A stretch of 37,965 nt of DNA from NCBI GenBank assembly GCA_016873215.1, contig VGXU01000021.1:1-37965 (forward strand). Reading direction: 5' to 3'. This DNA comes from Planctomycetota bacterium (GTDB lineage: Bacteria > Planctomycetota > Phycisphaerae > Sedimentisphaerales > Anaerohalosphaeraceae). The notes beneath the pieces are model-generated. The model searched no databases, was not told the origin of the DNA, and was given only the letters and a program-made list of their open reading frames with translations. A program made the translations under genes and the position numbers. The number at the start of each line of letters is the position of its first letter. Position 1 is the first letter of the stretch. This document shows positions 8,963 to 24,875 of the stretch, piece after piece.

Positions 8963-9648
8963 GTGCATTTTTGCGTCTTGAAGATATTCGAAAAAGCTAT
9001 GCCGGCCCCGGCGGGCAGACGGAAGTGCTGAGCGGGATTTCTCTGGATGCGGGACAGGGGCAGACGATTGCCATTGTCGGGCCGTCGGGCTGCGGCAAAA
9101 GCACGCTGCTCAATATTGTCGGTTTATTGGACAGGCCCACAGCGGGCAAGGTGATATTAGACGAGCGCGAGCTGACGGCTCTGTCGGATACGGAGGCGGC
9201 CAAGGTACGCAACCGGAAAATCGGATTTGTGTTTCAGATGCACCATTTACTGCCGCAGTGCAGCGTGCTGGAGAATGTTTTGCTGCCGACACTGGCGGGT
9301 GGAAAGAAATTGCCTGCCAGGGAGTTTCAATCGCGGGCCCAAGAACTTTTGGAACGGGTGGGGCTGAAAGACCGAATGCAGCATCGGCCCGGCCAGCTCA
9401 GCGCCGGTCAGCGGCAGCGTGCGGCTATTGTACGGGCACTGATTTTACAGCCTGTTTTACTTTTGGCCGACGAGCCGACGGGGGCATTGGACAAAGATAA
9501 CGCCGAACAAATCGCCGAACTGATAGTTGAACTGAACCGGCAGGAAAAAATGACGCTTATTGTCGCCACCCATTCGATGGAACTGGCGGGAAAAATGGAA
9601 TGGCGGTATCAGTTGACGCAGGGCGTTCTGCGGCAGAGTGAAATATGA
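8959..9648 (+). CDS. ABC transporter ATP-binding protein, LolD/MacB type
   Basis: The 229-residue ATPase carries Walker A (GPSGCGKST, about 36-44), the Q-loop (FVFQMHHLLPQCSVLENVLLP), the signature LSAGQRQRAAI, Walker B (LLLADEPTGALD) and a switch His in VATHSMELA. The GALD and HHLLPQ wording is typical of the LolD/MacB/FtsE branch, which drives extrusion of lipoproteins or peptides by a mechanotransmission mechanism rather than solute import. It overlaps both neighbours by four bases, and the next gene supplies the FtsX-type permease. Confidence 0.93.
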   Translation: MSAFLRLEDIRKSYAGPGGQTEVLSGISLDAGQGQTIAIVGPSGCGKSTLLNIVGLLDRPTAGKVILDERELTALSDTEAAKVRNRKIGFVFQMHHLLPQCSVLENVLLPTLAGGKKLPAREFQSRAQELLERVGLKDRMQHRPGQLSAGQRQRAAIVRALILQPVLLLADEPTGALDKDNAEQIAELIVELNRQEKMTLIVATHSMELAGKMEWRYQLTQGVLRQSEI

Positions 9649-12600
9649 ACCTGATTGGCATTACAAAACAGGGTTTACGGTTTTACTGGAAGACGCATTT
9701 AGCGACGGGGCTGGCGGTGCTGGTCGCGGCGGCGGTGCTGGCAGGTGCTCTGGCGGTGGGCGATTCGATAAAAGCCACCCTGACCCGGCGGGCGCAAATG
9801 CGTCTGGGTCGGGTAGGGACGGCGGTGCAGTGTCCGGGACTGTTTCGGGCTAAACTGGCGGCGGAACTGGAAGAGAAACTGACGCCGCAGCAGGGTCAGG
9901 TGGCTTCGACGAATGCGCTGCAGGTTGTTGTCGCGCCGGTCCTGCGGACGACGGGATTTACGGAGAACGCGGACGGCACGGTGCGCGTGGGCAACATACA
10001 AATTCTTGGCATTGATGAACGGTACTGGAAACTGGGGCCGCAGTCGTCGACTCGTCAGGCGGAGGAAATAAAAGAGGGCGCGGCGGTCAGCCGGGCGCTG
10101 GCCCAGCGGCTGGGATTGAAAGCCGGTCAGGAGATTGTCGTGCGGATGCGTGCCGTGGGCGGGACGCCCGCAGAAACGGTGCTGACGCCGGAGGAACAGA
10201 CTCGTGTGTCGTTTCGGCGGACGGTTGCGCGGGTTGTCGAAGACGAAGCATTCGGCGGATTTGATTTGTATTCCCGGCCCGACAGCGGTCTGAATGTGTT
10301 TGTGCCGCTGGAGGAACTTAGCGCGATGACGGATGCGGAAGGCGGGGTGACTTGGGCCAATATGCTGCTCATCGGCGGTGCGGTTAATACGAATGATATT
10401 CGGCAGACGCTGCCGACGGTATGGCAGTTGGAGGATGCGGGGCTGGAATTACGGCTGGTGGACTGGCCGCGTGTTCTGGAATTGCGCAGCCAGGGGGTAT
10501 TTATTCCGGACGCCATTACTCAGGGGATACAGAAGAATGTCGGCGGTGCGCTGGGGCTGGTGACCTATTTTGTAAATGAGCTGCGCTGCGGCCTGCGGAC
10601 GGTACCGTATTCATTTGTGTGCGCGGTGGATGATATGCCGCAGGAAAAATCGCCGGTGACGGTGACGCAGGAAGAGATGATTATCAATGAATGGCTGGCC
10701 GATGCATTGAAAGCGTCGGAAGGGGATAAAATTGAGATTCGTTATTTTGTGCCATCGCAGGCCAAGAAGCTGGTCGAACAGGCGGGGACATTCACGGTCA
10801 AGACGGTGATTCCGATGATGGGCAGCGGAGCGGACAGTTCGCTGATGCCGGGGTATAAGGCGCTGGCGGACGCGGAGAACTGCCGTGATTGGAAAGCGGG
10901 GATTCCTATTGATTTGTCCAAAATCCGTCCTGAAGACGAGGAGTACTGGGAGAAATACAAGGGTGCGCCCAAGGCGTTTATTTCGATGAAGGCCGCCAGG
11001 CTGTTATGGTCGAGCCGGTTTGGGACGCTGACGGCGATACGATTTTCGGTGGATGAATATGATATGCGTTCTCTGCGCGCCAAAATTCTTTCCGCGATAG
11101 ACCCGTGGCAGGCGGGGTTTGTGGTATTCGATATGCGGCATACTGCACACGAGGCCGCGAAGGCGACGACGGATTTCGGCAGTTTAGTGACGGGATTGAG
11201 TCTGTTTCTCATCGCGGCATCGCTGATACTGGCAGGGCTGGTGTGGTCATTCGGTCTGCGCCGGCGGGCTATGCAGGTAGGGATGCTGTCGGCGACGGGT
11301 TTTACAAAGGGACGTATCGGATGGGTTTTTCTGCTGGAGGAAGGGCCGGTGGTTTTGGTTGCCTCGTTATTAGGAACGGCGGCGGGGCTGGTTTATACGA
11401 AATTGATTCTGGCGGGGCTGAATAGTATTTGGGCCGGGGCCGCAGGCGGAATGAAAATGCTGTTTGCCGTGCGGCCGCAGACAATGGCGCTGGCAGCGGG
11501 GATTTCGATTGTCATGGCGGCCATTGTCTGGCTGCTGCGGATCCGTGAATTTACAAAACGGCCTGCGGCTCAATTGCTGGATAGGACACAGGAAATCCTT
11601 TTACCGAAGGGGATGGTTGGATTTTCACTGGCGGGTGCGGTGTTTCTTGTGTTTGCCGCGGCCGGGCTAAGCGTTTACGGCACAATGGTTTCGGCGCAGG
11701 CTGCGGGGGGGATGTTTTTCGGCGCCGGCGCGATGATATTGATTGCAATGTCGCTGTTTTTGTCAGCGGGATTGGCGTATCTCGGAGTGCAGGCAAAACG
11801 AATATCTTCGTCACGATGGGGGCTGGCGATAAAAAGCGCGGCCCGGCGAAGAGGGCGAAGCCTGGCGGTTTCAATGACGCTGGCGATGGGGATATTTGTC
11901 GTTCTGGCGACGGGGATTTTTCAGCGGACTGCGCCGAAAGACCCGGCGGAAAAAACAAGCGGTACGGGCGGTTTTACGCTGTGGGCGCAGAGCAGTGTGC
12001 CGTTGGTCAATGACCTCAATGATACGCGGTTTCAACAGCAGGTTGGGATAGTGTTTGCCGAAAAAGGGGATTTCAATGCGGTATCGCTGCGGGTGCAGTC
12101 GGCGGAGGATGCCAGTTGTCTGAATCTCGGGCGGGCGCAGCAGCCGAGTTTATGGGGCGTACGGCCGGAGTCGCTGGCCGGGCGGTTTCGTTTCAAAAAA
12201 GTTCTCGATAGGAAACCGCCGGCCAATTCGTGGGAATGGCTAAATCTGGATTTGGGTGAAGATATCGTCCCGGCCATCGGTGACTGGGCGACGGTATATT
12301 GGGGACTGCATAAAGATGTTGGCGATGAAGTGGATTATACGGACCAGAACGGCAGGGTGTTTCGGCTGAAAATTGTTGCGATGCTGGATGATTCGATATT
12401 GCAGGGCGGGCTTGTCATCAGCGAAAAGCAATTTTTGAAACGATTTGAGAATACCAGCGGCTGGACTGTCTTTTTGATGGATGTCCCGGTTTCATCGGCC
12501 GGGGCTGCGGGTAAAACGCTGACGCAGTCGCTGGGAGTGTATGGGTTTGAGGTACAAACCACCGCCGAAAGATTAACGATGTTTCATCAGGTGGAAAATA

Positions 12601-12977
12601 CGTATATTGGAATTTTTATGGTTCTCGGTTCGCTGGGACTGGTCATTGGGACTGTGGGGCTGGGGCTTGTGGTACTGCTTAACGCGATGGAGCGGACGGG
12701 AGAAATGGCGATGATGCGGGCCATTGGGTACAAGAGGAAGACGCTGGGGTTGATGCTGTTTGCTGAGCATGCGGGACTTTTGACGGCGGGCCTTGTGTTT
12801 GGCATTATTTCGGCGGCGGTGGCGGCGGGACCGCAGCTTGAACAAATGGCGAATCTGCCATGGAAGATGGTTACATCGCTGACGGCAGTGATGTGGGTCA
12901 ACGGATTAGTGTGGGTGGGGATAGCGGCGTCGGCGACAATGCGGGGCGATTTGCTGGAACCGTTGCGAAAAGAGTAA
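9645..12977 (+). CDS. Large FtsX-family ABC permease (1110 aa)
   Basis: A membrane span near residues 20-42 precedes a long extracytoplasmic domain (to about 510). A bundle of spans follows (SLVTGLSLFLIAASLILAGL near 515, further spans to about 720), then a second extracytoplasmic domain (about 770-980). Closing spans include GLVIGTVGLGLVVLLNAMER and the coupling sequence MMRAIGYKRKTLG. This duplicated FtsX layout is common to long LolC/E- or MacB-like permeases. The substrate cannot be read from sequence. Together with the overlapping ATPase and glycosyltransferase it suggests export or extraction of an envelope lipid, lipoprotein or glycoconjugate. Confidence 0.9.
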   Translation: MNLIGITKQGLRFYWKTHLATGLAVLVAAAVLAGALAVGDSIKATLTRRAQMRLGRVGTAVQCPGLFRAKLAAELEEKLTPQQGQVASTNALQVVVAPVLRTTGFTENADGTVRVGNIQILGIDERYWKLGPQSSTRQAEEIKEGAAVSRALAQRLGLKAGQEIVVRMRAVGGTPAETVLTPEEQTRVSFRRTVARVVEDEAFGGFDLYSRPDSGLNVFVPLEELSAMTDAEGGVTWANMLLIGGAVNTNDIRQTLPTVWQLEDAGLELRLVDWPRVLELRSQGVFIPDAITQGIQKNVGGALGLVTYFVNELRCGLRTVPYSFVCAVDDMPQEKSPVTVTQEEMIINEWLADALKASEGDKIEIRYFVPSQAKKLVEQAGTFTVKTVIPMMGSGADSSLMPGYKALADAENCRDWKAGIPIDLSKIRPEDEEYWEKYKGAPKAFISMKAARLLWSSRFGTLTAIRFSVDEYDMRSLRAKILSAIDPWQAGFVVFDMRHTAHEAAKATTDFGSLVTGLSLFLIAASLILAGLVWSFGLRRRAMQVGMLSATGFTKGRIGWVFLLEEGPVVLVASLLGTAAGLVYTKLILAGLNSIWAGAAGGMKMLFAVRPQTMALAAGISIVMAAIVWLLRIREFTKRPAAQLLDRTQEILLPKGMVGFSLAGAVFLVFAAAGLSVYGTMVSAQAAGGMFFGAGAMILIAMSLFLSAGLAYLGVQAKRISSSRWGLAIKSAARRRGRSLAVSMTLAMGIFVVLATGIFQRTAPKDPAEKTSGTGGFTLWAQSSVPLVNDLNDTRFQQQVGIVFAEKGDFNAVSLRVQSAEDASCLNLGRAQQPSLWGVRPESLAGRFRFKKVLDRKPPANSWEWLNLDLGEDIVPAIGDWATVYWGLHKDVGDEVDYTDQNGRVFRLKIVAMLDDSILQGGLVISEKQFLKRFENTSGWTVFLMDVPVSSAGAAGKTLTQSLGVYGFEVQTTAERLTMFHQVENTYIGIFMVLGSLGLVIGTVGLGLVVLLNAMERTGEMAMMRAIGYKRKTLGLMLFAEHAGLLTAGLVFGIISAAVAAGPQLEQMANLPWKMVTSLTAVMWVNGLVWVGIAASATMRGDLLEPLRKE

Positions 12978-12994
12978 AAATAAAATCAAACATT

Positions 12995-13071
12995 AAAAGG
13001 CAAAAAGCAAAATTGAGGAATCGCCTGCGGCGATGAAATTAACACTGGATTCTGGCCTTCGCCAGAATGAC
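12995..13071. repeat. Intergenic hairpin element, copy A
   Basis: An AAAAGGCAAAA-type A-rich lead is followed by ATCGCC-TGC-GGCGAT (13020-13034) and then by ATTCTGGC-CTTC-GCCAGAAT (13049-13068) plus GAC. The second hairpin resembles the dispersed palindromes seen in many bacterial genomes as GGATTCC...GGAATGAC. Confidence 0.7.
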
Positions 13072-13083
13072 AAATGTGAATCT

Positions 13084-14484
13084 ATGAATATGCGACAACA
13101 AAGACTAAAATGGGTATTGCCGGGCCTGCTGATTGCGGTAGGGACGGCGTTGTTTTCCGTGTGGATTTGTCGCTACCAGCGGTTTGAAGTGACGGTGCGT
13201 TTGCCGGGGGCGGATGGACGGCCTGCGGCATCGGTTGCTTCCGTTGGCGGCGGGCCTGCGGCGGGCAGTCTGCAAATGTTTGACGGTAAACCTTCGGCGA
13301 TTGCCAATTCGTGGCCGTGTTTTCGGGGGGCCGATTACGATGGAATCAGCAAAGAAAACGTTCCGCTGCTGCGGCAATTTCCGGAAGGCGGGCCGAAAAA
13401 ACTGTGGCAGATACCGCTTGGCGAAGGTTACGCAGGAGCAACGGTTTGGAAGGGACGGGTTTATGTGATTGATTACGACCCGGCTAAGCAGGCCGATGCG
13501 ATACGATGCCTGAGCCTGGAAGATGGCAAGGAAATCTGGCGATATTCTTATCCGGTGAAAATCAAGCGCAATCACGGGATGAGCCGAACGACGCCGGCGG
13601 CGGCGGATGGATTTGTTGTGACGATGGGGCCGAAGTGCCATGTCTGCTGTTTGAATGCGGAGACGGGGCAGTTTATCTGGGGGATGGATTTGGTTCGTGA
13701 GTATGGCACGCAGGAGCCGCTGTGGTATGCGGGGCAGTGTCCGCGCATCGAGAACGGCCGGGCGATTATCGCGCCGGGAGGAAAGGCGCTGATGATTGCC
13801 GTCGAATGCGCCACGGGCAAAGTCGTCTGGCAGACGGAAAATCCGGACGGGTGGCAAATGACGCATTCGTCAATTCTGCCGATGAATTTCGCGGGCAAGC
13901 GGATGTATGTATATTGTGCAAGCGGCGGCGTGGTTGGGGTGGATGCCGAGAACGGGCGGATACTCTGGAAGACGGACCAATGGAAGCTCAAGACGAACGT
14001 GCCGACGCCGGTGGATTGCGGGGATGGGAAAATATTTTTCTCGGCGGGGTATAACAAGGGCAGCATGATGCTGCAACTAAAACAGGCAGGCGGAGAAATT
14101 GTTCCACAGGTTTTGTTTACGCTGAAGGCGAATGTGTTCGGTGCAGACCAGCAAACTCCCGTCTTTTATCAGGGGTACATCTACGGCGTGCGTCCCGATA
14201 AACGGCTTGTGTGTATGGATACAAATGGCAAAATTCTCTGGAACAGCGGCGAAGCAAATACGTATGGGCTGGGGCCGTATATGGTTGCCGATGGTAAGAT
14301 TATTGTCCTGAATGATGAAGGGGTTTTGTCTTTTATTCAGGCGAAATCCGACGCTTTTGACCTGATAACACAGACGAAAGTATTGGAGGGGCATGAAAGC
14401 TGGGGACCGATGGCGCTGGTGAGCGGACGGTTGATTGTGCGGGATTTGACGAATATGGTGTGCGTGGATGTGGCGCAGCGGTAG
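13084..14484 (+). CDS. Membrane-anchored PQQ/BamB-like beta-propeller protein
   Basis: The 466-residue product has an N-terminal membrane span (WVLPGLLIAVGTALFSVWI, about 9-27) and a short linker. The propeller begins at WPCFRGADYDGISKE and has repeats such as GRVYVIDYD, LEDGKEIWRY, CATGKVVWQT and DAENGRILWKT. The blades look like BamB/PQQ-like propellers (A-x-D-x2-T-G-x2-x-W type). I do not see quinoprotein-dehydrogenase active-site residues, so a binding or scaffolding role outside the membrane is more likely than catalysis. The frame opens at 13033 inside a repeat element; the ATG at 13084 avoids this and keeps the anchor. No clear ribosome binding site is seen. Confidence 0.85.
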   Translation: MNMRQQRLKWVLPGLLIAVGTALFSVWICRYQRFEVTVRLPGADGRPAASVASVGGGPAAGSLQMFDGKPSAIANSWPCFRGADYDGISKENVPLLRQFPEGGPKKLWQIPLGEGYAGATVWKGRVYVIDYDPAKQADAIRCLSLEDGKEIWRYSYPVKIKRNHGMSRTTPAAADGFVVTMGPKCHVCCLNAETGQFIWGMDLVREYGTQEPLWYAGQCPRIENGRAIIAPGGKALMIAVECATGKVVWQTENPDGWQMTHSSILPMNFAGKRMYVYCASGGVVGVDAENGRILWKTDQWKLKTNVPTPVDCGDGKIFFSAGYNKGSMMLQLKQAGGEIVPQVLFTLKANVFGADQQTPVFYQGYIYGVRPDKRLVCMDTNGKILWNSGEANTYGLGPYMVADGKIIVLNDEGVLSFIQAKSDAFDLITQTKVLEGHESWGPMALVSGRLIVRDLTNMVCVDVAQR

Positions 14485-14602: not shown

Positions 14603-15649
14603 ATGGAAATTTGGAGAAACGATTTGAATTATCGGCAAGGTAAAATTGATTCAGGTGTATGGGCGGGGGTGGTGATTACCATAGCCATCGCGGCAGGATT
14701 TTGCGCAGTGCTGTTTTTCGATACGACGGGGCAGAAAGGCAGCGGTCTTTCGGAAGAGTATGTCTATGATATTTCGCAGTACACCAAAATTGACCCGGCG
14801 ATGATTTTATACCGGCAGGCGGGGCCGACGATTGCCGCGGGGCTGAAAAGTACAAAGGCGATTGCGGTGCGGGGTGAGATTTACATTGCCGGAGATAAAG
14901 AAATTATCGTTGTAGATGGGGCGGGCAAGGCCAAACGTAAAATTACGCTGGATGCCGAGCCGACGTGTATTACGTTAAAAGAAGACGGCACGATTGTCGT
15001 GGGAATGGGGGATGCGCTAGTCGTAATCAATCCGGAAGGACAGGAGCGGACGCGATGGGCAGTCGAGGAGGCAAATGCGAGGCTGACATCAGTTGCGCTG
15101 AGTCCGGAAATAATTTTTGCCGCCGATGCGGTCAATGGGCTGATTTATGAGTATGACTGGGCGGGAAAACTTATTCGCACCATTGGTCAAAAAAGTGACG
15201 GCAAAGGCAAAAACGGATTTGTGATTCCAAGCCCGTATTTTGATATTGCGATGGCGCCGGATGGATTGCTTCGCGTAGTTGACCCCGGCAGACATTTGAT
15301 TGTCGCCTATACAATCAATGGCGACAGAGAATGGAGCTGGGGGACGGCGACACCGGCGATTGAGGGATTCAGCGGATGCTGCAATCCTGTGAATTTTGCG
15401 ATACTGCCGGACGGATCATTTGTGACGATCGAAAAAGGGCTGGTGCGTGTCAAAGTGTATGATGCGGAGGGGAAGTTTATCGGCGTCGTCGCAGGCGCCG
15501 AACAACTGGAGTGGACACAACAGCAGCAGGTCTGCAATACGCCCGAACAATGTCAAAGTAAAGGCTTCGATGTGGCGGTTGATAACGACGGCCGGATTTA
15601 TGTTTTGGATACGGTAAAAAATGTGGTTCGAATTTTTGAGAAAAAATAA
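14603..15649 (+). CDS. Membrane-anchored NHL-type beta-propeller protein
   Basis: A single N-terminal span (GVWAGVVITIAIAAGFCAVLFF, about 19-40) precedes repeats of the NHL/SMP-30 style: KSTKAIAVRGEIYIAG, DGTIVVGMGDALVVI, YFDIAMAPDGLLRVVD, FAILPDGSFVTIEKG and FDVAVDNDGRIYVLDT. Two adjacent Cys (GCCNPVNF) and a CNTPEQC pair could form disulfides or bind a metal. No catalytic signature is seen. Either the ATG at 14603 or an in-frame TTG at 14624 could start it. The TTG has a GGAG eight bases upstream, the ATG has none. Its end overlaps the next gene by 29 bases, which ties it to the Fe-S block. Confidence 0.8.
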   Translation: MEIWRNDLNYRQGKIDSGVWAGVVITIAIAAGFCAVLFFDTTGQKGSGLSEEYVYDISQYTKIDPAMILYRQAGPTIAAGLKSTKAIAVRGEIYIAGDKEIIVVDGAGKAKRKITLDAEPTCITLKEDGTIVVGMGDALVVINPEGQERTRWAVEEANARLTSVALSPEIIFAADAVNGLIYEYDWAGKLIRTIGQKSDGKGKNGFVIPSPYFDIAMAPDGLLRVVDPGRHLIVAYTINGDREWSWGTATPAIEGFSGCCNPVNFAILPDGSFVTIEKGLVRVKVYDAEGKFIGVVAGAEQLEWTQQQQVCNTPEQCQSKGFDVAVDNDGRIYVLDTVKNVVRIFEKK

Positions 15650-15893
15650 AACTGAGACGATTTTGGATGGTCGGCGCCAGTGGCTTGTCGCGGCGGGGCG
15701 ATGGGGGGTTGTCGCGCTGATTGCCGGGACGGTGGGCGGATTGTGGAAAAGCGGCAGGATTACACCCCGGAGGCAAACCTGTGCTGATGAGGAAGGCAAA
15801 ATCGGCTGTCGAAAATGCGCGTATCTGAATGATTGCGGACATCCAAAAGCATTGTCAGCAAAACAGGTCATTAAGGAAAACAGCAAAGGGTAA
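15621..15893 (+). CDS. Small Cys-rich membrane protein (90 aa)
   Basis: I know no name for this family. The protein has one membrane span (WGVVALIAGTVGGLWKSG, about 28-45) and a short tail with four Cys in the pattern C-x8-C-x2-C-x5-C (TCADEEGKIGCRKCAYLNDC). Such a set could hold an Fe-S cluster or zinc. The reading frame starts inside the end of the NHL gene. This overlap, and its place just before the polyferredoxin and NapH-like genes, argue that it is real and belongs to the same membrane redox assembly. Function is inferred from context only. Confidence 0.72.
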   Translation: MWFEFLRKNKTETILDGRRQWLVAAGRWGVVALIAGTVGGLWKSGRITPRRQTCADEEGKIGCRKCAYLNDCGHPKALSAKQVIKENSKG

Positions 15894-16021: not shown

Positions 16022-16582
16022 ATGGACGAAAAGAAAAATCAATACAGTCGGCGTGATATTCTGCGGCATGGTGTATGGGGGGCATGCGCGGCGGGTGTCG
16101 CGGGGACAGGTGCGATACTGGCGTCGAAGAGCCGGGGACAAAAATACGTCTGGCAGATTGATCCCTATAAATGTACCGCCTGCGGTAACTGCGCGACATT
16201 CTGTGTCCTGCAGGAATCGGCGGTCAAATGCGTTCACGCTTATGCGATGTGCGGCTACTGTGATTTGTGCACGGGATACTACCGTCCTGAGCCGAAGGAA
16301 CTGAATACCGCGGCGGAGAATCAGCTCTGTCCGCGCGGGGCGATCAAGCGGACTTACGTCGAAGACCCCTATTTCGAATATACGATTGACGAAACGAAGT
16401 GCAACGGCTGCGGCAAATGTGTCATGGGATGCACCTCTTTCGGCAACGGGTCGCTGTTTCTGCAAATCCGGCACGACCGATGCGTCGGCTGTAATGAATG
16501 TGCGATTGCGATAGCGTGCCCGGAAAACGCCATCGTGCGAGTGCCGGCGGAGGAACCTTATTTGCTCAAGGACCGGCGATGA
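16022..16582 (+). CDS. Tat-type polyferredoxin, NapG-like
   Basis: The 186-residue protein opens with a twin-arginine signal (YSRRDILRHG plus a hydrophobic stretch to about residue 36), so it is probably exported folded with its clusters. Cys sets follow: CTACGNCATFC near 51, CGYCDLC near 77, CNGCGKCVMGC near 124 and CVGCNECAIAIACP near 149. This gives room for up to four 4Fe-4S clusters, as in NapG/NosG-type electron carriers that pair with a NapH-type quinol dehydrogenase. The next gene, a NapH-like protein, overlaps it by four bases and supports this pairing. Physiological donor and acceptor are unknown. Confidence 0.87.
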   Translation: MDEKKNQYSRRDILRHGVWGACAAGVAGTGAILASKSRGQKYVWQIDPYKCTACGNCATFCVLQESAVKCVHAYAMCGYCDLCTGYYRPEPKELNTAAENQLCPRGAIKRTYVEDPYFEYTIDETKCNGCGKCVMGCTSFGNGSLFLQIRHDRCVGCNECAIAIACPENAIVRVPAEEPYLLKDRR

Positions 16583-17736
16583 CACGACGAATGTGGACAT
16601 ATCTATTGCCGGTTCTGATGTTGTGCGTGTTGGCGTGGGGTGTGGAGCGATTTCCGCCGCCGCAGTTCGAATCAGGACATCAAGTGCCGCAGATGGCAAC
16701 GCCTTTGCCGCGTGCGGCGGTATGGGACTGGATTGATACGGGGGTGTTGTTTGCGGCTCTGTGTGCGGCGTCGTGGCTGGCGTTAAAGAAGCGCAATCGA
16801 AAATGGATTGCGGGGCTGATGATTTTTTCGCTGCTGTATTTTGGATTCTGGCGGCGCGGGTGTGTGTGCCCGGTGGGGGCGATTGGCAATGCGGCGCTGG
16901 CGGCGGCGGATTCGAGTTATGCAATTCCCGCTGTCGTGCTGGCGTTTTTTTTGCTGCCTTTGATTTTCACGCTGTTTTTTGGGCGCGGTTTCTGCGGGGC
17001 GGTATGTCCGCTGGGGGCGGTGCAGGATTTGTTTATCATTAGGCCGATGCGCGTGCTGCCGGCGCTGGAAGCGGGGTTGCGATTGTTCGCGTATTTATAC
17101 CTGGCGGCGGCGGCGGTGATGGCGGCGACGGGAACGATGTTTTTGATTTGCCGATACGACCCGTTCGTGACGCTGTTTCGATTTGACGGCAACTGGAACG
17201 GCTGGGTACTGACGGCCAGTTTCCTTGCGATTTCGATATTTATAGCCCGTCCGTATTGCCGGTTTTTATGCCCTTATGGGGTGATATTGCGGAATCTGAG
17301 CCGGTTGTCAAAATGGCGGGTTACGATTACGCCGGACGAGTGCATTCATTGCAGGTTATGCGAGAACGTCTGTCCATTTGGCGCTATCAGCGAGCCGAGT
17401 AAAGTATTGCCCCTGGCTGAGACGGCCGAAAATAAACGCAGGCTGGTGGTTTTCATTATCCTTGCGCCGATACTTGCCGCGGCAGGCGGATGGCTGGGAT
17501 GGACGGTATATCCAATGCTGGCGAAACAGGGCGGTGTCGCGGAATCGGCGAAGTCTTTGGGAATAAAACTGGCTATTGTGGCGGGTGTGTTTGTAGGCCT
17601 TGCGGCGGCGGGCAAACTGATTGGCAGCGTCATCGGCCGACGGCAGGAAGATTACGAGGCCCGGCGGGCGGATTGCTTTGCGTGCGGACGGTGTTTTGAA
17701 TATTGTCCGAGAGAGCAGCTCAAAAGGAAGCAATAG
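16579..17736 (+). CDS. NapH-like membrane Fe-S protein
   Basis: The 385-residue protein has about six membrane spans. It carries the paired C-x3-CP motifs of the NapH/NosR/CcoG group: FCGAVCPLGA near residue 140 and YCRFLCPYGV near 230. A ferredoxin-like C-x2-C-x2-C-x3-CP (CIHCRLCENVCPFG) follows near 255, and after two more spans there is a C-terminal CFACGRCFEYCP. The earlier segment CVCPVGAIGN adds another CP. Relatives oxidise quinol and pass electrons to a periplasmic polyferredoxin. The start at 16579 overlaps the upstream stop (ATGA). The additional C-terminal cluster after the extra spans is not standard for NapH. Confidence 0.87.
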   Translation: MTRRMWTYLLPVLMLCVLAWGVERFPPPQFESGHQVPQMATPLPRAAVWDWIDTGVLFAALCAASWLALKKRNRKWIAGLMIFSLLYFGFWRRGCVCPVGAIGNAALAAADSSYAIPAVVLAFFLLPLIFTLFFGRGFCGAVCPLGAVQDLFIIRPMRVLPALEAGLRLFAYLYLAAAAVMAATGTMFLICRYDPFVTLFRFDGNWNGWVLTASFLAISIFIARPYCRFLCPYGVILRNLSRLSKWRVTITPDECIHCRLCENVCPFGAISEPSKVLPLAETAENKRRLVVFIILAPILAAAGGWLGWTVYPMLAKQGGVAESAKSLGIKLAIVAGVFVGLAAAGKLIGSVIGRRQEDYEARRADCFACGRCFEYCPREQLKRKQ

Positions 17737-17742
17737 CAAAAT

Positions 17743-19455
17743 ATGGATTATATTGACAATACAGAAATTAAACTTCGGCCCGCGTATCAGGGGCTGATGG
17801 GCGGAGCGGTTGCGGCGGCGGTGTTCGCGGGTTTAGCGGCGGCGCTGTTGATGGTCAACGCATATCAGATTCGGGTTATCGAGCCGCGACAGGCCGGGCA
17901 TCTGCTCGAAATGGAAAAGCAATTTGACGCCCGTCAAAACGATGAAGCGCTGGCGGGACGAATCCGCGATTTTGACGCTCATGTTCGCCGGGATGCACTG
18001 CGCCGGCAGCAATTCGCTCATACGGGGGCGATGTACTTGGTCTGCAGTCTGATTGTGTCGGCGGGATGTTTTCTGGCGGCCCGGTTGATGCTGCGTCCAT
18101 CGCCGGTTATTCCTGCGAGGCCGGTTTGTGCCGGGTTGCAGGTGCGTCAGGCGATACAGGTCAGGATGGCGGTGACGGTGGTGCTGGCGGTTGTCGCGTC
18201 GGCGGGATTGTATGCTGTGCTGCGTGTGCCGGCGGAATCGAAGCCAAAGACATCTGCAATGACTGTGGACTGGGCCGAGACGGTTAAAGGGCAATGGCCG
18301 TCGTTTCGCGGGCCGTGGGGCGACGGTGCGGCGGGAGAAAAAGATATTCCCGCGGCATGGAATGAAAAAGAAAATAAAGGTGTGCTTTGGAAGTCGGTTG
18401 TGCCGCTGACTTCGCACAGTTCGCCCATAGTGTGGGGCGATAAAATTTTCTTAAGCGGTGCGATAAAGGATGAACAAAAAATATTCTGTTACGGCGCCAA
18501 AGACGGCAAATTATTGTGGACGAGTGCGATTAAGCCTGCCGGAGTGGAAGGCCGGGCGGCGCCGGATGTGATGGAGGATACGGGGTATGCCGCATCAACG
18601 CCGGCGGTCAACGGTAAATATGTGTGTGCGATTTTTGTTACGGGCGATATCGGCTGTTTTGATATGGACGGCAAAGTCCAATGGCAAAAAGCGCTGGGCG
18701 TTCCGGAAAGTATATACGGCTATGCCGCATCGCTGGCGGTATTCAATGATATGGTGATTGTGCAGTTTGACCAGGGGACGGAGGCGGGCAGGAGTGAATT
18801 AATCGCTATCAATATGACCGACGGCAAAATCGCATGGCGGACGAATCGGCCTGTGCCGAATTCGTGGACTTCGCCGACGGTGGTGAAAGTCGGGAATGGT
18901 TATCAGATATTGGCCAGCGGTTCGCCGTGGGTCATTGGCTACGAGGCATTGACGGGACGGGAATTATGGCGTGCGTCGTGTCTGGGCAGCGACATTGCCC
19001 CGACGCAGATTTCAGTGGGCGGGTTGGCGCTTGCGGTTCAGCCTTATGATAAACTGTATGCTATTCGAATGGATAATGCCGGCGGGGATGTGACACAGAC
19101 GGCGATGACCTGGCAAAAACAGGGTGATATGCCGGACATTTGCAGTCCTGTCAGCGATGGTAAATTAGTCTGGACTTTGACAACCAATGGAACACTGAGC
19201 TGTTTTGATCTGGCCGACGGCAAGGAAGTTTACAAGCAGTCGCTGGAAGGCGACTTTCATGCATCGCCCTCGGTTGTGGGGGATAAGTTATATATTTTAA
19301 ACCGTAAAGGGCTGATGATTATTGCCCAGATAGGCCGTGTGTATAAGGAGATTACTCGCAGCGCGATTGAGGAGGAATGTTTCGCATCACCAGCCTTTGC
19401 CGAGGGGCGAATTTATCTGCGTTCGACGAAAAGTCTTTATTGCATCGGGCAATAA
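17743..19455 (+). CDS. Multi-span membrane protein with PQQ/BamB-like propeller
   Basis: The first 165 residues hold three predicted spans (about 15-37, 91-115 and 138-160), with a charged helical segment (QFDARQNDEALAGRIRDFDAH) between the first two. The propeller starts at WPSFRGPWGDGAAGE (about residue 186) and contains blades such as AKDGKLLWTS, MTDGKIAWRT and LTGRELWRA. It should sit outside the cytoplasmic membrane. It begins six bases after the NapH-like gene and lies directly before the NADH module, so it probably belongs to the same complex or pathway. Dehydrogenase active-site residues are not evident. Confidence 0.83.
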   Translation: MDYIDNTEIKLRPAYQGLMGGAVAAAVFAGLAAALLMVNAYQIRVIEPRQAGHLLEMEKQFDARQNDEALAGRIRDFDAHVRRDALRRQQFAHTGAMYLVCSLIVSAGCFLAARLMLRPSPVIPARPVCAGLQVRQAIQVRMAVTVVLAVVASAGLYAVLRVPAESKPKTSAMTVDWAETVKGQWPSFRGPWGDGAAGEKDIPAAWNEKENKGVLWKSVVPLTSHSSPIVWGDKIFLSGAIKDEQKIFCYGAKDGKLLWTSAIKPAGVEGRAAPDVMEDTGYAASTPAVNGKYVCAIFVTGDIGCFDMDGKVQWQKALGVPESIYGYAASLAVFNDMVIVQFDQGTEAGRSELIAINMTDGKIAWRTNRPVPNSWTSPTVVKVGNGYQILASGSPWVIGYEALTGRELWRASCLGSDIAPTQISVGGLALAVQPYDKLYAIRMDNAGGDVTQTAMTWQKQGDMPDICSPVSDGKLVWTLTTNGTLSCFDLADGKEVYKQSLEGDFHASPSVVGDKLYILNRKGLMIIAQIGRVYKEITRSAIEEECFASPAFAEGRIYLRSTKSLYCIGQ

Positions 19456-19600: not shown

Positions 19601-21952
19601 ATGCAAGATGATGGTATAGACAAGATAGACTCGATTTTGGGTCGAGTTGGAACCGGCGGGGAAAAAGTCCTTGCGATTCTGCAGGCGGTCCAGCAGGTGT
19701 ATGGTTATCTGCCTAAGGAAGCGCTGGAACGGGTGTGTGAGAGGACGTCCATTCGGTCCGCGGATTTATGGGGTGTGGCGACATTTTATGACCAGTTTCG
19801 GCTGGAGCCGACGGGCAAGCATCGTATCCGTGTGTGCGTGGGGACGGCCTGTCATGTCAAGGGCAGCGAGCGGGTGTATGAGGCGTTTCGGCGTGTGCTG
19901 GAAATTGAATCGGGTAAAGACACGGATGCGCAGAGACTTTTCACGGTGGAGAAAATCGCGTGCCTGGGGTGCTGTACTTTGGCGCCGGTGGTGCAGATTG
20001 ACCAAAAGGTCTACGGGCCAGTCCGGCCGGAGTCGGTGAGTGAAATTCTGGAAGCGGCGCAGCAGGAAACCCAGCGAGATATTTCGATTCTGCCGGGCGG
20101 TTCGAGTGCATCGGCGGAACAGACGGCTGAATTGCGTGTGGGGCTGGGATCATGCTGTATGGCGGGGGGAAGTCTCAATGTCCGGAAAGAGCTTGACCGT
20201 ACAATTGCGAATCTGGGGCTGGGCGGCGGCGTGAAGGTCAAACCCGTCGGTTGTGTGGGGATGTGTCATCAGACGCCGCTGGTGGAAATTTTGCTGCCGA
20301 AAAAGACAGCAACGGAGTCGAATGGCGACGGAGATAAAATTTTATATACGAAAGTGACGACGGCGGATGCGGGGCGGATTGTCCGGCGGCATTTTCGGGC
20401 GAAGGGATTGTGGCGGCGCATTCGGGGAACGATGGATGAAGTGCTGGACAGCGTGGTTAAAGCGGATGAGAGAATACCTGTGCCGCGGGCGGTGCGGGAT
20501 ACGGAAATCTGTGCATTTCTGGGCGGGCAGCGCCGTATCGCAACGGAATACTGCGGCGGGCTTAATCCGCTGGACGTGGATGAGTATATTCGGTATGAGG
20601 GGTGGAGGGCCTGGAAGCGGGCCAAAGAGATGCCGGCAGGGGATATTATTGAGGAGGTCAAAAAATCCGGCCTTCGCGGACGCGGCGGGGCGGGGTTTTC
20701 GGTGGGGCGAAAATGGGAGATTGCACGTCAGGCTAAAAGCGACGCCGACGGCATTAAATATATTATCTGCAATGGCGACGAGGGCGACCCCGGCGCGTTT
20801 ATGGACCGGATGATTCTGGAGAGTTATCCGTATCGTGTGCTGGAAGGGATGGCAATTGCCGCCAAAGTCGTGGGAGCCAGAGAAGGATTTTTATACATTC
20901 GTGCGGAATATCCGCTGGCGGTAGAGCGTGTGCGTGCGGCGATACAAATTTGCCAGGAGCGAAAACTTTTAGACGGATTAAAATTATCGATTGCCGAAGG
21001 GGCGGGCGCGTTTGTCTGCGGCGAAGAAACGGCGCTGATTGCTTCAATTGAAGGGCGTCGCGGGATGCCGACGATTCGTCCGCCGTACCCGGCTGAGGAG
21101 GGCTTGTGGGGCAGGCCGACGCTGATTAATAATGTGGAGACATACGCAACGGTGCCATGGATTTTGCGAAATGGGGCGGATGCATTTGCCGAAATCGGTA
21201 CACAGACCAGCAAAGGGACGAAGGTTTTCGCGCTGGCGGGAAAAATCCGGCGGGGCGGATTGATTGAAGTGCCGATGGGAATGACGATTCGGCAAATCGT
21301 GGAGGATATCGGCGGCGGTGTCGCCGGCGATGCGAAATTCAAGGCGGTGCAGATTGGCGGGCCTTCGGGGGGATGCGTACCTGCGGGTTTGGCTGATACG
21401 CCGATAGATTTTGAATCGCTGGGTGAAGTTGGTTCGATGATGGGGTCTGGCGGAATGGTGGTGCTGGACGAAAACGACTGCATGGTCGATATCGCGCGAT
21501 ATTTTCTTGAATTTACGCAGGCGCAATCGTGCGGGAAGTGCACGTTCTGCCGGGTGGGGACCAAGCGAATGCTGGAAATGCTGGAGCGTCTTTGCCGGGG
21601 CGAAGGCTGTGACCTCGATGAACTGGAAAAACTGGGACGCCAAATCAAGGCGGGCAGCCTGTGCGGGCTTGGCAAGACGGCGCCCAATCCGATTCTTTCA
21701 ACGCTGCGATATTTTCGTGAAGAATATGAAGCGCATCGGCACAATCAGTGCCCGGCCGGGCGATGCAAAGAGCTGATTCATTATGTCATCGGCGACAAAT
21801 GTATCGGCTGTACGATTTGTGCGCAGAATTGTCCAGTGGCGGCGATTACACCGAAACCCTATCAAAAACACGAGATTCAGCGGGATGTCTGTATTCGATG
21901 CGGAACATGCAAAAGCGTGTGTCCGCAGCAGGCGGTGGAAGTGCAAAGTTAA
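19601..21952 (+). CDS. HydC-HydB (NuoE-NuoF) fusion, NADH-oxidising Fe-S flavoprotein
   Basis: Four modules are fused in 783 residues. Residues 1-150 are NuoE/HydC-like, with 2Fe-2S ligands C79/C84 (CVGTAC) and ACLGCC near 122. Residues 175-265 are a second thioredoxin-like 2Fe-2S domain (GLGSCCMAGGS, GCVGMCHQTPLVEI). Residues 320-690 are the NuoF core, with GRGGAGFSVGRKWE, NGDEGDPGAF (FMN and NADH) and SCGKCTFCRVGT. The tail has two 4Fe-4S sets, CIGCTICAQNCP and CIRCGTCKSVCP. This matches the B and C subunits of HydABC-type bifurcating enzymes, normally two separate proteins. No [FeFe]-hydrogenase gene is nearby. The partner is probably the flavoprotein starting five bases downstream. Confidence 0.92.
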   Translation: MQDDGIDKIDSILGRVGTGGEKVLAILQAVQQVYGYLPKEALERVCERTSIRSADLWGVATFYDQFRLEPTGKHRIRVCVGTACHVKGSERVYEAFRRVLEIESGKDTDAQRLFTVEKIACLGCCTLAPVVQIDQKVYGPVRPESVSEILEAAQQETQRDISILPGGSSASAEQTAELRVGLGSCCMAGGSLNVRKELDRTIANLGLGGGVKVKPVGCVGMCHQTPLVEILLPKKTATESNGDGDKILYTKVTTADAGRIVRRHFRAKGLWRRIRGTMDEVLDSVVKADERIPVPRAVRDTEICAFLGGQRRIATEYCGGLNPLDVDEYIRYEGWRAWKRAKEMPAGDIIEEVKKSGLRGRGGAGFSVGRKWEIARQAKSDADGIKYIICNGDEGDPGAFMDRMILESYPYRVLEGMAIAAKVVGAREGFLYIRAEYPLAVERVRAAIQICQERKLLDGLKLSIAEGAGAFVCGEETALIASIEGRRGMPTIRPPYPAEEGLWGRPTLINNVETYATVPWILRNGADAFAEIGTQTSKGTKVFALAGKIRRGGLIEVPMGMTIRQIVEDIGGGVAGDAKFKAVQIGGPSGGCVPAGLADTPIDFESLGEVGSMMGSGGMVVLDENDCMVDIARYFLEFTQAQSCGKCTFCRVGTKRMLEMLERLCRGEGCDLDELEKLGRQIKAGSLCGLGKTAPNPILSTLRYFREEYEAHRHNQCPAGRCKELIHYVIGDKCIGCTICAQNCPVAAITPKPYQKHEIQRDVCIRCGTCKSVCPQQAVEVQS

Positions 21953-21957
21953 AAGAT

Positions 21958-23520
21958 ATGACCGACAATACGAAAACAATTCGATTGACGATAGACAGCA
22001 GGACTGTTGAGGTGGGACGGGGCGCGACAATTCTGTATGCGGCGCGCGCGGCGGGAATTTCGATTCCCACGATGTGCCATAAGGACGGATATAAGCCTTC
22101 GACGAGTTGTATGGTTTGTGTGGTGCGAGTGGAAGGGAATCCGTCATTCGTGCCGTCCTGCGGGGCGGCGGTGCAGGATGGGATGCGAGTTTGGACGAAT
22201 ACCCCTGATGTTTTGGAGGCGAGGAAAACGGCTGTGGAATTGCTGCTGAGCGAACACGCCGGGGACTGCGAAGGGCCGTGCCGGATAGGATGTCCTGCCA
22301 ATATGAATATACCGCTGATGCTGCGGCAGATTACGGCCGGGCGGCTGGACTTGGCGATTGGGACCATTAAGGCGGATATTGCGCTGCCGGCGGTGCTGGG
22401 GCGAATATGTCCGGCGCCGTGCGAGAAGGTGTGCCGCAGAAATGCTCATGATGCGGCGGTGTCGATTTGTCAACTGAAACGATTTGTCGCGGACTGGGAC
22501 TTGCGGCGGTTTGATACATATCGACCGCAATGTGAACCGGCTGGCGGCAAAAAGGTCGCAGTCGTGGGGGCGGGGCCTTGCGGTCTGGCGGCGGCATATT
22601 ATTTGGCACGAAGCGGGGTTCGCTGCGTGTTGTTTGATAAAAATGAAAAAGCCGGCGGGGCGCTGCGAACGGGTATTGAAGAATCTGTACTGCCGCGTGA
22701 TATTCTTGATATGGAAATTCATCAAATTCTTTCGCTGGGGAATATAGAATTTCATGGCGGGATGGAAGTTGGGTTGGAGTTGTTCGATTCACTTTGCAAG
22801 GACTATGACGCGGTCTTTATCGCTTCAGGTGAAAATAGTGCGGATAAATATGGTTTGAAAAAGACTGCTAAGGGATTAAAAGCGGACCTTGCCACCTATC
22901 AAACCGACCGGGCCAATGTCTTTGCCGGCGGCGGCGTTATCGGCAGACGCAGAATATGTGTGCGTGCCGTGGCCGATGGCAAGGAAGCGGCGGTTTCAAT
23001 TTTACAGTATCTGCGAGGACAGAATATTGCCGGGCCGGAAAAACGGTTCAACAGTCATCTGGGGCAGCTTATGGAAGGAGAAATGGAACAATTTTTAACA
23101 GGGGCGGAAAAGGGGCCGCGATGTCCGGCAAGGAAAGAGGGTTTTTTGACGCTGGAGGCGATGACCGAGGCGCAACGATGTCTGCATTGCGATTGCGGCA
23201 AGGCGGACGATTGTACCTTGCGTAAAATGGCGGAGTTGAACTATGCCCGACAGCAGACGTATAAAGGACAGCGTAAGCCTTTTAGTCGTCAGGCAGGTAA
23301 TTCGGGGCTTGTTTTTGAGGCGGGAAAGTGTATCCTGTGTGGGCTGTGTGTGCAGGCGGCGAGGGCTTATACCGAAAGTACAGGCCTGACATTTTCAGCC
23401 AGAGGGTTTGAAACGCGGGTAGCTGTGCCATTACAGAAAGCTCTTAATGAGGCCTTGACGAAAGAGGCCATGGAAAAATGTGTTGCGGTCTGCCCGACAG
23501 GGGCGATGACAAAAATTTAA
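21958..23520 (+). CDS. NuoG/GltD-like Fe-S flavoprotein lacking the NAD(P)H domain
   Basis: The 520-residue protein begins with a NuoG-type 2Fe-2S domain (C40, C51, C54, C68). A GltD-type Fe-S segment follows (C104, C108, C112, then CPAPCEKVC at 151-159). The FAD fold has GAGPCG at 204-209. In GltD a second Rossmann fold for NADPH follows. Here VFIASGEN passes within about 25 residues to NVFAGGGVIG, the FAD closing motif, so the NAD(P)H domain is missing. The C-terminus adds CLHCDCGKADDC (from 408) and a NuoG-like CILCGLC...VCPTGA set (from 458). It presumably relays electrons between the NADH module and another Fe-S partner rather than using NADPH itself. Confidence 0.87.
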   Translation: MTDNTKTIRLTIDSRTVEVGRGATILYAARAAGISIPTMCHKDGYKPSTSCMVCVVRVEGNPSFVPSCGAAVQDGMRVWTNTPDVLEARKTAVELLLSEHAGDCEGPCRIGCPANMNIPLMLRQITAGRLDLAIGTIKADIALPAVLGRICPAPCEKVCRRNAHDAAVSICQLKRFVADWDLRRFDTYRPQCEPAGGKKVAVVGAGPCGLAAAYYLARSGVRCVLFDKNEKAGGALRTGIEESVLPRDILDMEIHQILSLGNIEFHGGMEVGLELFDSLCKDYDAVFIASGENSADKYGLKKTAKGLKADLATYQTDRANVFAGGGVIGRRRICVRAVADGKEAAVSILQYLRGQNIAGPEKRFNSHLGQLMEGEMEQFLTGAEKGPRCPARKEGFLTLEAMTEAQRCLHCDCGKADDCTLRKMAELNYARQQTYKGQRKPFSRQAGNSGLVFEAGKCILCGLCVQAARAYTESTGLTFSARGFETRVAVPLQKALNEALTKEAMEKCVAVCPTGAMTKI

Positions 23521-23579
23521 AACTTAAAACCATGAACTCAAAACCAAAGATTAAAAGTCAAAGATGATTGGAGATTAGA

Positions 23580-24875
23580 ATGAACAAAATCAGCAGGCAA
23601 AGAATAACAGGATTGTTTTTGGTATGTCTGGCGTCCTTTGTTTTTGCGGCAGACTGGCCGAGATGGCGCGGGCCGAACGGCGACGGTATTTCCACGGAGA
23701 AAGACTGGGATGCGCTGGCGGTCAATGATGGAAATAAACCGTTGTGGACAGCCCAGGTGGGAACCGGTTTTTCAGCAATCGTGGTGGCCCAGGGCAAGGC
23801 TGTTACGATGGGCAATATCAAGAATACTGATGTCGTATTCTGTTTTGATGCCCAGACAGGCAAGGAACTGTGGAAGTACGAATACCCTGAATCACTGGGG
23901 GCTAAAAATTATGACGGCGGCACGCACGGCACACCGACGATTGCGGACGGCAAAGTATATGTGCTCAGTAAATTCGGTAAAGCGTTCTGTTTTTCGCTGG
24001 CTGACGGAAAAGTGATTTGGCAAAAAGAACTTAAAATGAAAGCGCCGGAGTGGGGATTCGCCGGTTCGCCGGTGATTGTGGGTGACAAGGTGATTTATAA
24101 TGTTTCCGACCGCGGCGTTGCGCTGAATAAGACGACAGGACAGGAAATCTGGGCCGGCGAAAACAAGCCGTCGGGGTACAGTACGGCTGTAGTTGAAACG
24201 AAAGACAATCAAACAGTCGTTTATTTATTCGATGGCGATAATCTGCGATGTGTGAATGCGGACACGGGTGTCGCCTTATGGTCCTATCCATGGAAAACGC
24301 AGTACGGCGTCAACGCGGCCGATCCGCTCGTCATCGGTCAGGAAATATTTATCACCGGCGGTTATAACCATGGATGCAGCCTCCTTAAGATCGAGGCGGG
24401 TCAGCCGGTCAAGCTCTGGGAAAATAAAAATATGCGGTCACAGATGTCTGGCCCCGTGGTGATTGACGGATATATTTACGGGATTGATGATAATCAACTG
24501 GTGTGCCTGGACTGGAAAACCGGTGAAAAGAAATGGCAGGAAAAATCTGTGGGCAAAGGCAGCCTGATGGCCGCCGACGGCAAATTGATTGTGCTTGGTG
24601 AGAAGGGCAAATTATTTATTGCCAAAGCGATACCCGAAAAATTCGACCTGATTGCTTCGATGCAGGCAATTGAAGATTACTGCTGGACGATGCCCACGCT
24701 GGCCAACGGCAAAATCTATGTCCGCAACGCCAAAGGGATGCTGGTGTGTGTCGATGTATCACAAAAGAAAGCGGTCCGTTCTGTGGAAACGGGCGAAAGG
24801 GGCGCCGAGAGCCCTTTTGGCCGCAATGGCAGGGGCCGAAACGAAATAACGTTAGCGAAGAAACGGGACTGTTGA
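23580..24875 (+). CDS. Exported BamB-like propeller, first half of a split double propeller
   Basis: A signal peptide (ITGLFLVCLASFVFAA, cleavage near residue 24) leads into WPRWRGPNGDGISTE and repeated blades: AQTGKELWKYE, LADGKVIWQKE, DTGVALWSY and DWKTGEKKWQE. The frame 23580-24875 reads 431 residues. From TTT at 24816 onward it turns into basic nonsense (GRNGRGRNE...) to its stop. A -1 change there continues as WPQWQGPKRNN, the entry motif of a second propeller. The ATG at 23580 has a GGAG six bases upstream; a TTG at 23568 is less likely. The intact product would be 804 residues. Confidence 0.85.
   Translation: MNKISRQRITGLFLVCLASFVFAADWPRWRGPNGDGISTEKDWDALAVNDGNKPLWTAQVGTGFSAIVVAQGKAVTMGNIKNTDVVFCFDAQTGKELWKYEYPESLGAKNYDGGTHGTPTIADGKVYVLSKFGKAFCFSLADGKVIWQKELKMKAPEWGFAGSPVIVGDKVIYNVSDRGVALNKTTGQEIWAGENKPSGYSTAVVETKDNQTVVYLFDGDNLRCVNADTGVALWSYPWKTQYGVNAADPLVIGQEIFITGGYNHGCSLLKIEAGQPVKLWENKNMRSQMSGPVVIDGYIYGIDDNQLVCLDWKTGEKKWQEKSVGKGSLMAADGKLIVLGEKGKLFIAKAIPEKFDLIASMQAIEDYCWTMPTLANGKIYVRNAKGMLVCVDVSQKKAVRSVETGERGAESPFGRNGRGRNEITLAKKRDC

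Follow-up and report, generated by a model that had tools for sequence, protein, structure and literature searches.

The window analyzed here is a stretch of 37,965 nucleotides from a Planctomycetota bacterium (GCA_016873215.1, contig VGXU01000021.1, positions 1 to 37,965), which contains a cluster of redox genes encoded on the forward (+) strand. The conserved head of the cluster is a gene for a TM-anchored PQQ-like β-propeller (13,033–14,484), which is followed by genes for a TM-anchored NHL-type propeller with a conserved vicinal cysteine pair in the motif GCCNP (14,603–15,649) and for a small RR-leader protein with four conserved cysteines (54, 63, 66, 72; 15,621–15,893) that is present at some loci only. 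Downstream of these, a predicted Tat-exported ferredoxin is encoded (16,022–16,582), the 17 conserved cysteines of which offer room for four [4Fe-4S] clusters, and its stop codon is overlapped (ATGA) by the start of the gene for a NapH-like integral membrane Fe-S protein with 15 conserved cysteines (16,579–17,736). A membrane-anchored PQQ-like β-propeller with hydrophobic segments near residues 20–46, 99–117 and 134–160 (17,743–19,455) is conserved directly 5′ of the gene for BfuCB, a fused BfuC-BfuB (NuoE-NuoF) core protein of 783 amino acids (19,601–21,952). Five bases past the stop codon of this open reading frame starts the gene for the A subunit BfuA (21,958–23,520), an intact reading frame of 520 amino acids from its ATG, and a further PQQ-like β-propeller is encoded at a conserved position 3′ of it (23,568–24,875).

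BfuA starts with a Fer2_4 domain (residues 6–82, above the Pfam cut-off) containing the [2Fe-2S] ligands C40, C51, C54 and C68, followed by a GltD-type Fe-S region (H100, C104, C108, C112, C151, C155, C159, K174) that is matched by Fer4_20 at residues 104–182. A FAD half-domain (residues 198–352), a further cysteine group (C408/C411/C413/C419) and a C-terminal [4Fe-4S] site (C458, C461, C464, C512) within a Fer4_Nqo3 match slightly under the cut-off (residues 455–518) complete the protein. The Pfam profile Pyr_redox_2 is matched by residues 198–300 at its positions 1–119 of 291 only. The original prediction had placed the loss of the NADPH domain between the motifs VFIASGEN and NVFAGGG; the former ends at residue 293 and the latter begins at residue 320, leaving 26 residues in between, and together with the truncated Pyr_redox_2 match and split PDB alignments this bears the prediction out. 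At the DNA level, the first half of the FAD Rossmann fold is encoded by positions 22,549–22,830 (+ strand; residues 198–291, including the invariant GxGPxGL motif and a flavin-ring loop at 238–244 that is degenerate in short forms) and the linker standing in the place of the NADPH domain by positions 22,831–22,926 (+ strand; residues 292–323).

Alignments of BfuA to the A subunits of NfnABC (9bov_A), Thermococcus NfnA (9n5u_A) and StnC (8oh5_C) are each interrupted at the NADPH domain and fall into at least two pieces; for 9bov the alignment jumps from residue 294 to 426. The AlphaFold2 model of BfuA, calculated with 40 sequences, reaches a pLDDT of 92.8 and a pTM of 0.90, and it superposes with 506 of its 520 residues on residues 1–680 of 9bov_A (Z 40.6) and with 250 residues at 1.7 Å on residues 47–472 of NfnL (5jfc_L), showing that the fold is complete except for the absent NADPH domain. 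An alignment with GltD, NfnB/NfnL and HydABC-family flavoproteins and a structure model had originally been proposed as checks; the comparisons yielded matches to NfnABC, StnC and NfnL, in each case minus this one domain. Pfam and the linker length agree that the NADP(H)-binding Rossmann domain, a hallmark of the A subunits of Stn and Nfn-Bfu, is missing.

The protein had originally been described as a GltD with NuoG ends attached. The NuoG-type front and tail are indeed present; however, they are ancestral, as the full-length counterparts of BfuA are the A subunits StnC and NfnA of the Bfu-type transhydrogenases StnABC and NfnABC, which carry the same ends. BfuA does not have the layout of GltD/NfnL, i.e., FAD and NADPH domains lacking a NuoG-type N-terminus. 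The best NCBIfam match of BfuA is the PRK12814-type family NF009454 (657 amino acids, “putative NADPH-dependent glutamate synthase small subunit”), which has the same domain order as BfuA; full-length relatives score 620–807 bits against this profile (cut-off 916) compared to 380 bits for BfuA, which lacks the NADPH domain. A GltD with newly added NuoG ends is ruled out by this domain order, shared by StnC, NfnA and the PRK12814-type proteins. Judged from its sequence, the protein is a StnC/NfnA-type Bfu A subunit from which the NADPH domain was excised.

The closest solved structures for both the A and the B subunit, in sequence and in structure, are the Type 1 Nfn-Bfu enzymes NfnABC of Caldicellulosiruptor (9bov) and Thermococcus sibiricus (9n5u). 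BfuA contains one C-terminal [4Fe-4S] cluster and lacks the second, as does NfnA of T. sibiricus. Unlike the system described here, these enzymes bind and use NADP(H), and their published descriptions report no membrane module. StnABC of Sporomusa ovata (8oh5; PMC10482914) likewise combines a NuoE/NuoF-like bifurcating core with a C subunit that has a NuoG front, a GltD Fe-S/FAD domain and the Fe-S clusters C3–C7. The BfuA model matches StnC with a Z score of 39.2 over 506 residues and retains StnC K170 as K174. In contrast to BfuA, StnC (1172 amino acids) includes an NADPH domain and, at its C-terminus, an FdhF-like domain that holds clusters C1 and C2 and lies off the FAD-to-FMN path. Moreover, StnA and StnB are separate proteins, whereas their equivalents are fused in BfuCB, and StnC C114 is replaced by isoleucine in BfuA.

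The loss of the domain is common to homologues in several phyla, and the local deletion that had been considered as the alternative outcome did not appear. In a set of 98 aligned homologues (68 short and 30 full-length forms) the stretch from an A-x-G motif (residues 289–291) to the next FAD motif (G325) comprises 33–37 residues in 65 of the 68 short forms and 179–198 residues in all full-length forms, with no intermediate lengths; the three outliers among the short forms have linkers of 9, 19 and 24 residues. The shortest of these belongs to a 473-residue protein (L132:7054–8475), the genome of which also encodes a full-length form. Short homologues occur in Planctomycetota, Bacteroidota, a Lentisphaerae-type phylum and others; 28 of 34 genomes of the same family that were searched contain a BfuA match at E ≤ 1e-60, and a contig search returned 13 loci from Planctomycetota, Aminicenantes, Lentisphaerae and Bacteroidota records at 41–53% identity. 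Some genomes encode a short form alongside a full-length one (G345 and G346; G1061 and G1070). In a tree built without the linker columns, the short forms make up one side of a single branch (SH-aLRT 99), so that a single change accounts for them. A local deletion, a frameshift or an assembly error is ruled out by the homologues that share this linker, and the single change rules out recent recurrent losses. There is accordingly next to no chance that gene decay or an assembly artefact in this genome explains the short form, given the same linker length in nearly all short homologues of a single clade spanning several phyla. The domain is present in GltD, Nfn, DPD and Stn alike, so that the change is most directly read as a loss rather than a gain, and it was apparently one ancient event that was retained across several phyla.

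The full-length forms suggest a route for the excision. In these, the NADPH domain lies between two strand-hinge motifs that resemble each other, D-A-V-F-L-A-I-G and A-D-T-V-I-A-A-I-G-Q. The linker, counted from A-x-G up to the FAD motif that follows, is exactly 37 residues long in 55 of the 68 short forms, and the segment after the second motif (A-I-G-Q) comprises 34–49 residues in nearly all full-length forms and 38 in the full-length form at locus L126. Since the length of the short linker matches that of the segment past the second motif, the excision seems to have run between the two A-x-G motifs, a mechanism that we infer from these lengths. L126 (genome G757) branches beside the short clade; its A subunit is full-length, with a Pyr_redox_2 match covering profile positions 2–291 and the motif GGGNTAMD, and its cluster (L126:456–9528) contains a fused BfuCB as well as genes for the NapH-like protein, the Tat-ferredoxin and propellers. 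The presence of a whole NADPH domain within such a cluster and the position beside the short clade make L126 look like an evolutionary intermediate, in which the membrane cluster was acquired first and the domain loss followed afterwards; it is a single locus, and the reading frame of its Tat-ferredoxin is split.

The partner protein BfuCB retains the features of a bifurcating core. It matches Complex1_51K, NADH_4Fe-4S, Fer4 and 2Fe-2S_thioredx, all above the Pfam cut-offs, and comprises a NuoE-like [2Fe-2S] domain, an N-terminal [2Fe-2S] domain, an FMN/NADH domain, the B1 [4Fe-4S] cluster, the B2 ligands and two C-terminal [4Fe-4S] clusters; its closest PDB relatives are HydB and the B subunits of NfnABC and StnABC. 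In the Bfu family, the B2 [2Fe-2S] cluster is ligated by four cysteines, one of which may be a threonine, and by a histidine that is tied to the bifurcating members (Schut et al., 2022, PMC9304861). The B2 ligands of BfuCB, assigned with the description in that study as a guide, are kept among homologues, i.e., C627 (CMVD), a threonine (CGLGKTAPNP), a histidine (EYEAH), C717 and C722, and so are the cysteines of B1, of the two C-terminal [4Fe-4S] clusters, of the N-terminal [2Fe-2S] cluster and of the NuoE part. On the side of BfuA, the A1/A2 cluster features of the Bfu family are present as Fer2_4 and the conserved residues C40/51/54/68 and H100/C104. The complex belongs to the Bfu family by the sequence features tested, and bifurcation among NAD(H), ferredoxin and a third substrate is predicted.

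The Fe-S chain of the short forms is complete. All 12 candidate ligands of the StnC clusters C5–C7 (H100, C104, C108, C112, C151, C155, C159, K174, C408, C411, C413, C419) are conserved, as are the four ligands each of C4 and C3, and among short and long forms of comparable divergence the Fe-S regions are slightly more conserved in the short ones. K174, a lysine in 85% of a wider homologue set, corresponds to StnC K170, which is required for activity (Kumar et al., PMC10482914). As all ligands of C3–C7 are retained, the FAD-to-FMN path of Stn (C7-C6-C5-C4-C3) is, by its ligands, intact in short BfuA. The original idea of a relay protein is supported. A 605-residue frame with a NuoG-type front in the same genome (G000:C1:10340–10954) also matches BfuA and may represent a separate HydA/NuoG-type subunit.

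The role left for the FAD is less uniform in its signals. The glycines of GxGPxGL (G204, G206, G209) are 100% conserved in the 68 short forms, G233–G234 are conserved in 98% and R237, near-invariant in full-length forms, in 85%, and the FAD return segment is retained (A339, G341, A345), suggesting that dinucleotide binding is still under selection. However, a second group of residues, consisting of the loop YGIPxYR (Y238, G239, I240, P241, Y243, R244), which presumably lines the flavin ring as in the GltD/Nfn family, and the aspartate D326 of the GD motif, is 93–100% conserved in full-length forms and drops to about 20–50% in short forms (P241 28%, R244 20%, D326 25%). Hydride chemistry was therefore probably lost in short BfuA, and its FAD, for which an exchange of electrons with Fe-S partners alone had originally been suggested, could act as a relay, be structural or be redox-inactive. 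Cys171, one helical turn from K174, is new in this position and is found in 80% of the short forms compared to 6% of the full-length forms; lying near the FAD-proximal cluster of StnC, it is perhaps an extra ligand.

These data bear on three alternative explanations. The GltD-derived half-domain might be a structural leftover with an idle flavin; electrons would then move directly between the Fe-S chain (C5–C7) and a partner, unless the sole role of the A subunit were to stabilize BfuCB. The decay of the flavin-ring loop and the GD aspartate, the faster evolution of the first FAD segment (conservation of residues 198–260 is 0.46 in short and 0.57 in long forms) and the fact that Stn itself retains the non-functional clusters C1/C2 for assembly (PMC10482914) agree with this; nevertheless, the invariant GxGPxGL motif, the frequent R237, the full set of Fe-S ligands and the compact fold predicted with high confidence by AlphaFold2 make it unlikely, though a serious competitor. 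Alternatively, the nucleotide site could be provided in trans by another protein, and the complex would then still use NADPH, or a different soluble donor of hydride, at the exposed FAD, as the retained FAD signature and normal-length GltD-type proteins elsewhere in the genome would allow; this is very improbable, since no stand-alone NADPH-domain protein was recognized among those proteins of the conserved cluster that were scanned with Pfam and the loop positioning the flavin for hydride transfer is degenerate. Slightly less probable still is a switch of the Rossmann half-domain from FAD to another nucleotide such as NAD: at the end of β-2 the predominant acidic residue is Glu in long forms (76%) and Asp in short forms (82%), and the pocket around the flavin ring has loosened, but the acidic residue is a weak, single-position sign and the FAD return segment persists.

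The gene neighborhood points to what may have taken the place of NADPH. Counting only loci with at least 7 kb of upstream sequence, the pair of NapH-like protein and Tat-ferredoxin lies upstream in 25 of 31 short loci compared to 1 of 10 full-length loci, the latter being L126 (Fisher p 1e-4, uncorrected for common descent, the loci of a single clade not being independent). The order and spacing of the cluster are the same in Planctomycetota and Bacteroidota. The NapH pair is missing from six short loci that have long flanks, and four of these (L042, L117, L118, L121) also have no BfuCB in the flanking DNA examined; L117 and L118 are the most divergent short forms, and these A subunits may have other partners. 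The product of 16,579–17,736 scores 53.5 bits against a cut-off of 213 and 47.6 against 234 with the NCBIfam NapH models and above the Pfam cut-off with Fer4_5; by these scores it is NapH-like, not NapH. Its AlphaFold2 model (pLDDT 79.6) has no PDB match at E ≤ 0.001. The cluster proteins scanned revealed neither an FMN-binding domain (FMN_bind in Pfam) nor a cytochrome or known periplasmic reductase, and membrane subunits of complex I were likewise not recognized in the cluster.

Several further proteins accompany the cluster. The GCCNP cysteine pair of the NHL-type propeller (residues 259–260) is kept in 25 homologues across phyla and is possibly a periplasmic redox or metal site. The small RR-leader protein has 90 amino acids, the pattern C-x8-C-x2-C-x5-C and no Pfam match. 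A GT4 glycosyltransferase, an ABC ATPase and a 1110-residue FtsX-type permease adjoin the redox cluster (7,673–12,977) and are also conserved next to it in Bacteroidota and other phyla (L038, L040, L045, L047, L119). A ferredoxin-like protein of about 267 amino acids with an N-terminal Cys-containing domain lies 3′ of short BfuA at L037:11534–12334, L077 (about 13485–14282) and L120:8056–8862; it occurs at three loci only and was not counted among the core parts.

Based on the distribution of the NapH-like/Tat-ferredoxin pair, short BfuA probably links the NADH and ferredoxin of the cell to the membrane or periplasm. The A subunit would belong to an NADH- and ferredoxin-linked Bfu flavoenzyme resembling HydABC and StnABC and, as the gene neighborhood suggests, would exchange electrons with the membrane module where NADPH formerly docked. 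The FAD is probably still bound via its ADP part, judged from the motif, and would no longer accept a hydride; its redox part may serve as a one-electron stepping stone or be lost. Cytoplasmic NADH and reduced ferredoxin would then be coupled by (con)bifurcation at the FMN to the quinone pool or to a periplasmic Fe-S acceptor or donor. We favor, with some reservation, that the NADPH domain was excised once in an ancestral Bfu A subunit and that a membrane electron route replaced the NADPH input.

Related solutions have been described. The Bfu core was proposed to have been combined with many third substrates by changes in BfuA, and many clades are unassigned (Schut et al., PMC9304861). A coupling of the Bfu core to a membrane acceptor was likewise proposed for Nuo-Bfu (Type 3; PMC9304861), which uses complex I membrane subunits, whereas a NapH-like protein and a Tat-ferredoxin are present here. 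As proposed here, a NapH-like (PF12801) membrane Fe-S protein serves as transmembrane conduit in extracytosolic electron transfer systems (PMC8238504); those systems are defined by ApbE-flavinylated FMN-binding domains, none of which was found among the cluster proteins scanned, and the parts of that work consulted describe no link to Bfu. The open-licence papers searched yielded no description of a Bfu/GltD relative without NADPH domain in bifurcating enzymes or of this cluster. The A subunit without NADPH domain would represent a new variation on the known Bfu family. Going further, the data allow, with a chance slightly short of even, for a new Bfu enzyme type, in which a GltD-derived Fe-S subunit without hydride activity wires a ferredoxin/NADH (con)bifurcating core to a NapH-like transmembrane conduit, a Tat-exported ferredoxin and several anchored β-propellers, so that anaerobes from several phyla would exchange bifurcated electrons with the periplasm, the L126-type operon being the bridge from NADPH to membrane use.

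The swap of a third substrate can be read directly in this family, with one excision of the NADPH site, a membrane/periplasmic redox module fixed alongside and an apparent intermediate in L126. Short BfuA moreover provides a natural test of the role of a GltD-type FAD once hydride transfer is gone. If the link to the membrane module is real, it would give the energetics of NADH and ferredoxin a route to the periplasm that needs neither Rnf nor complex I.
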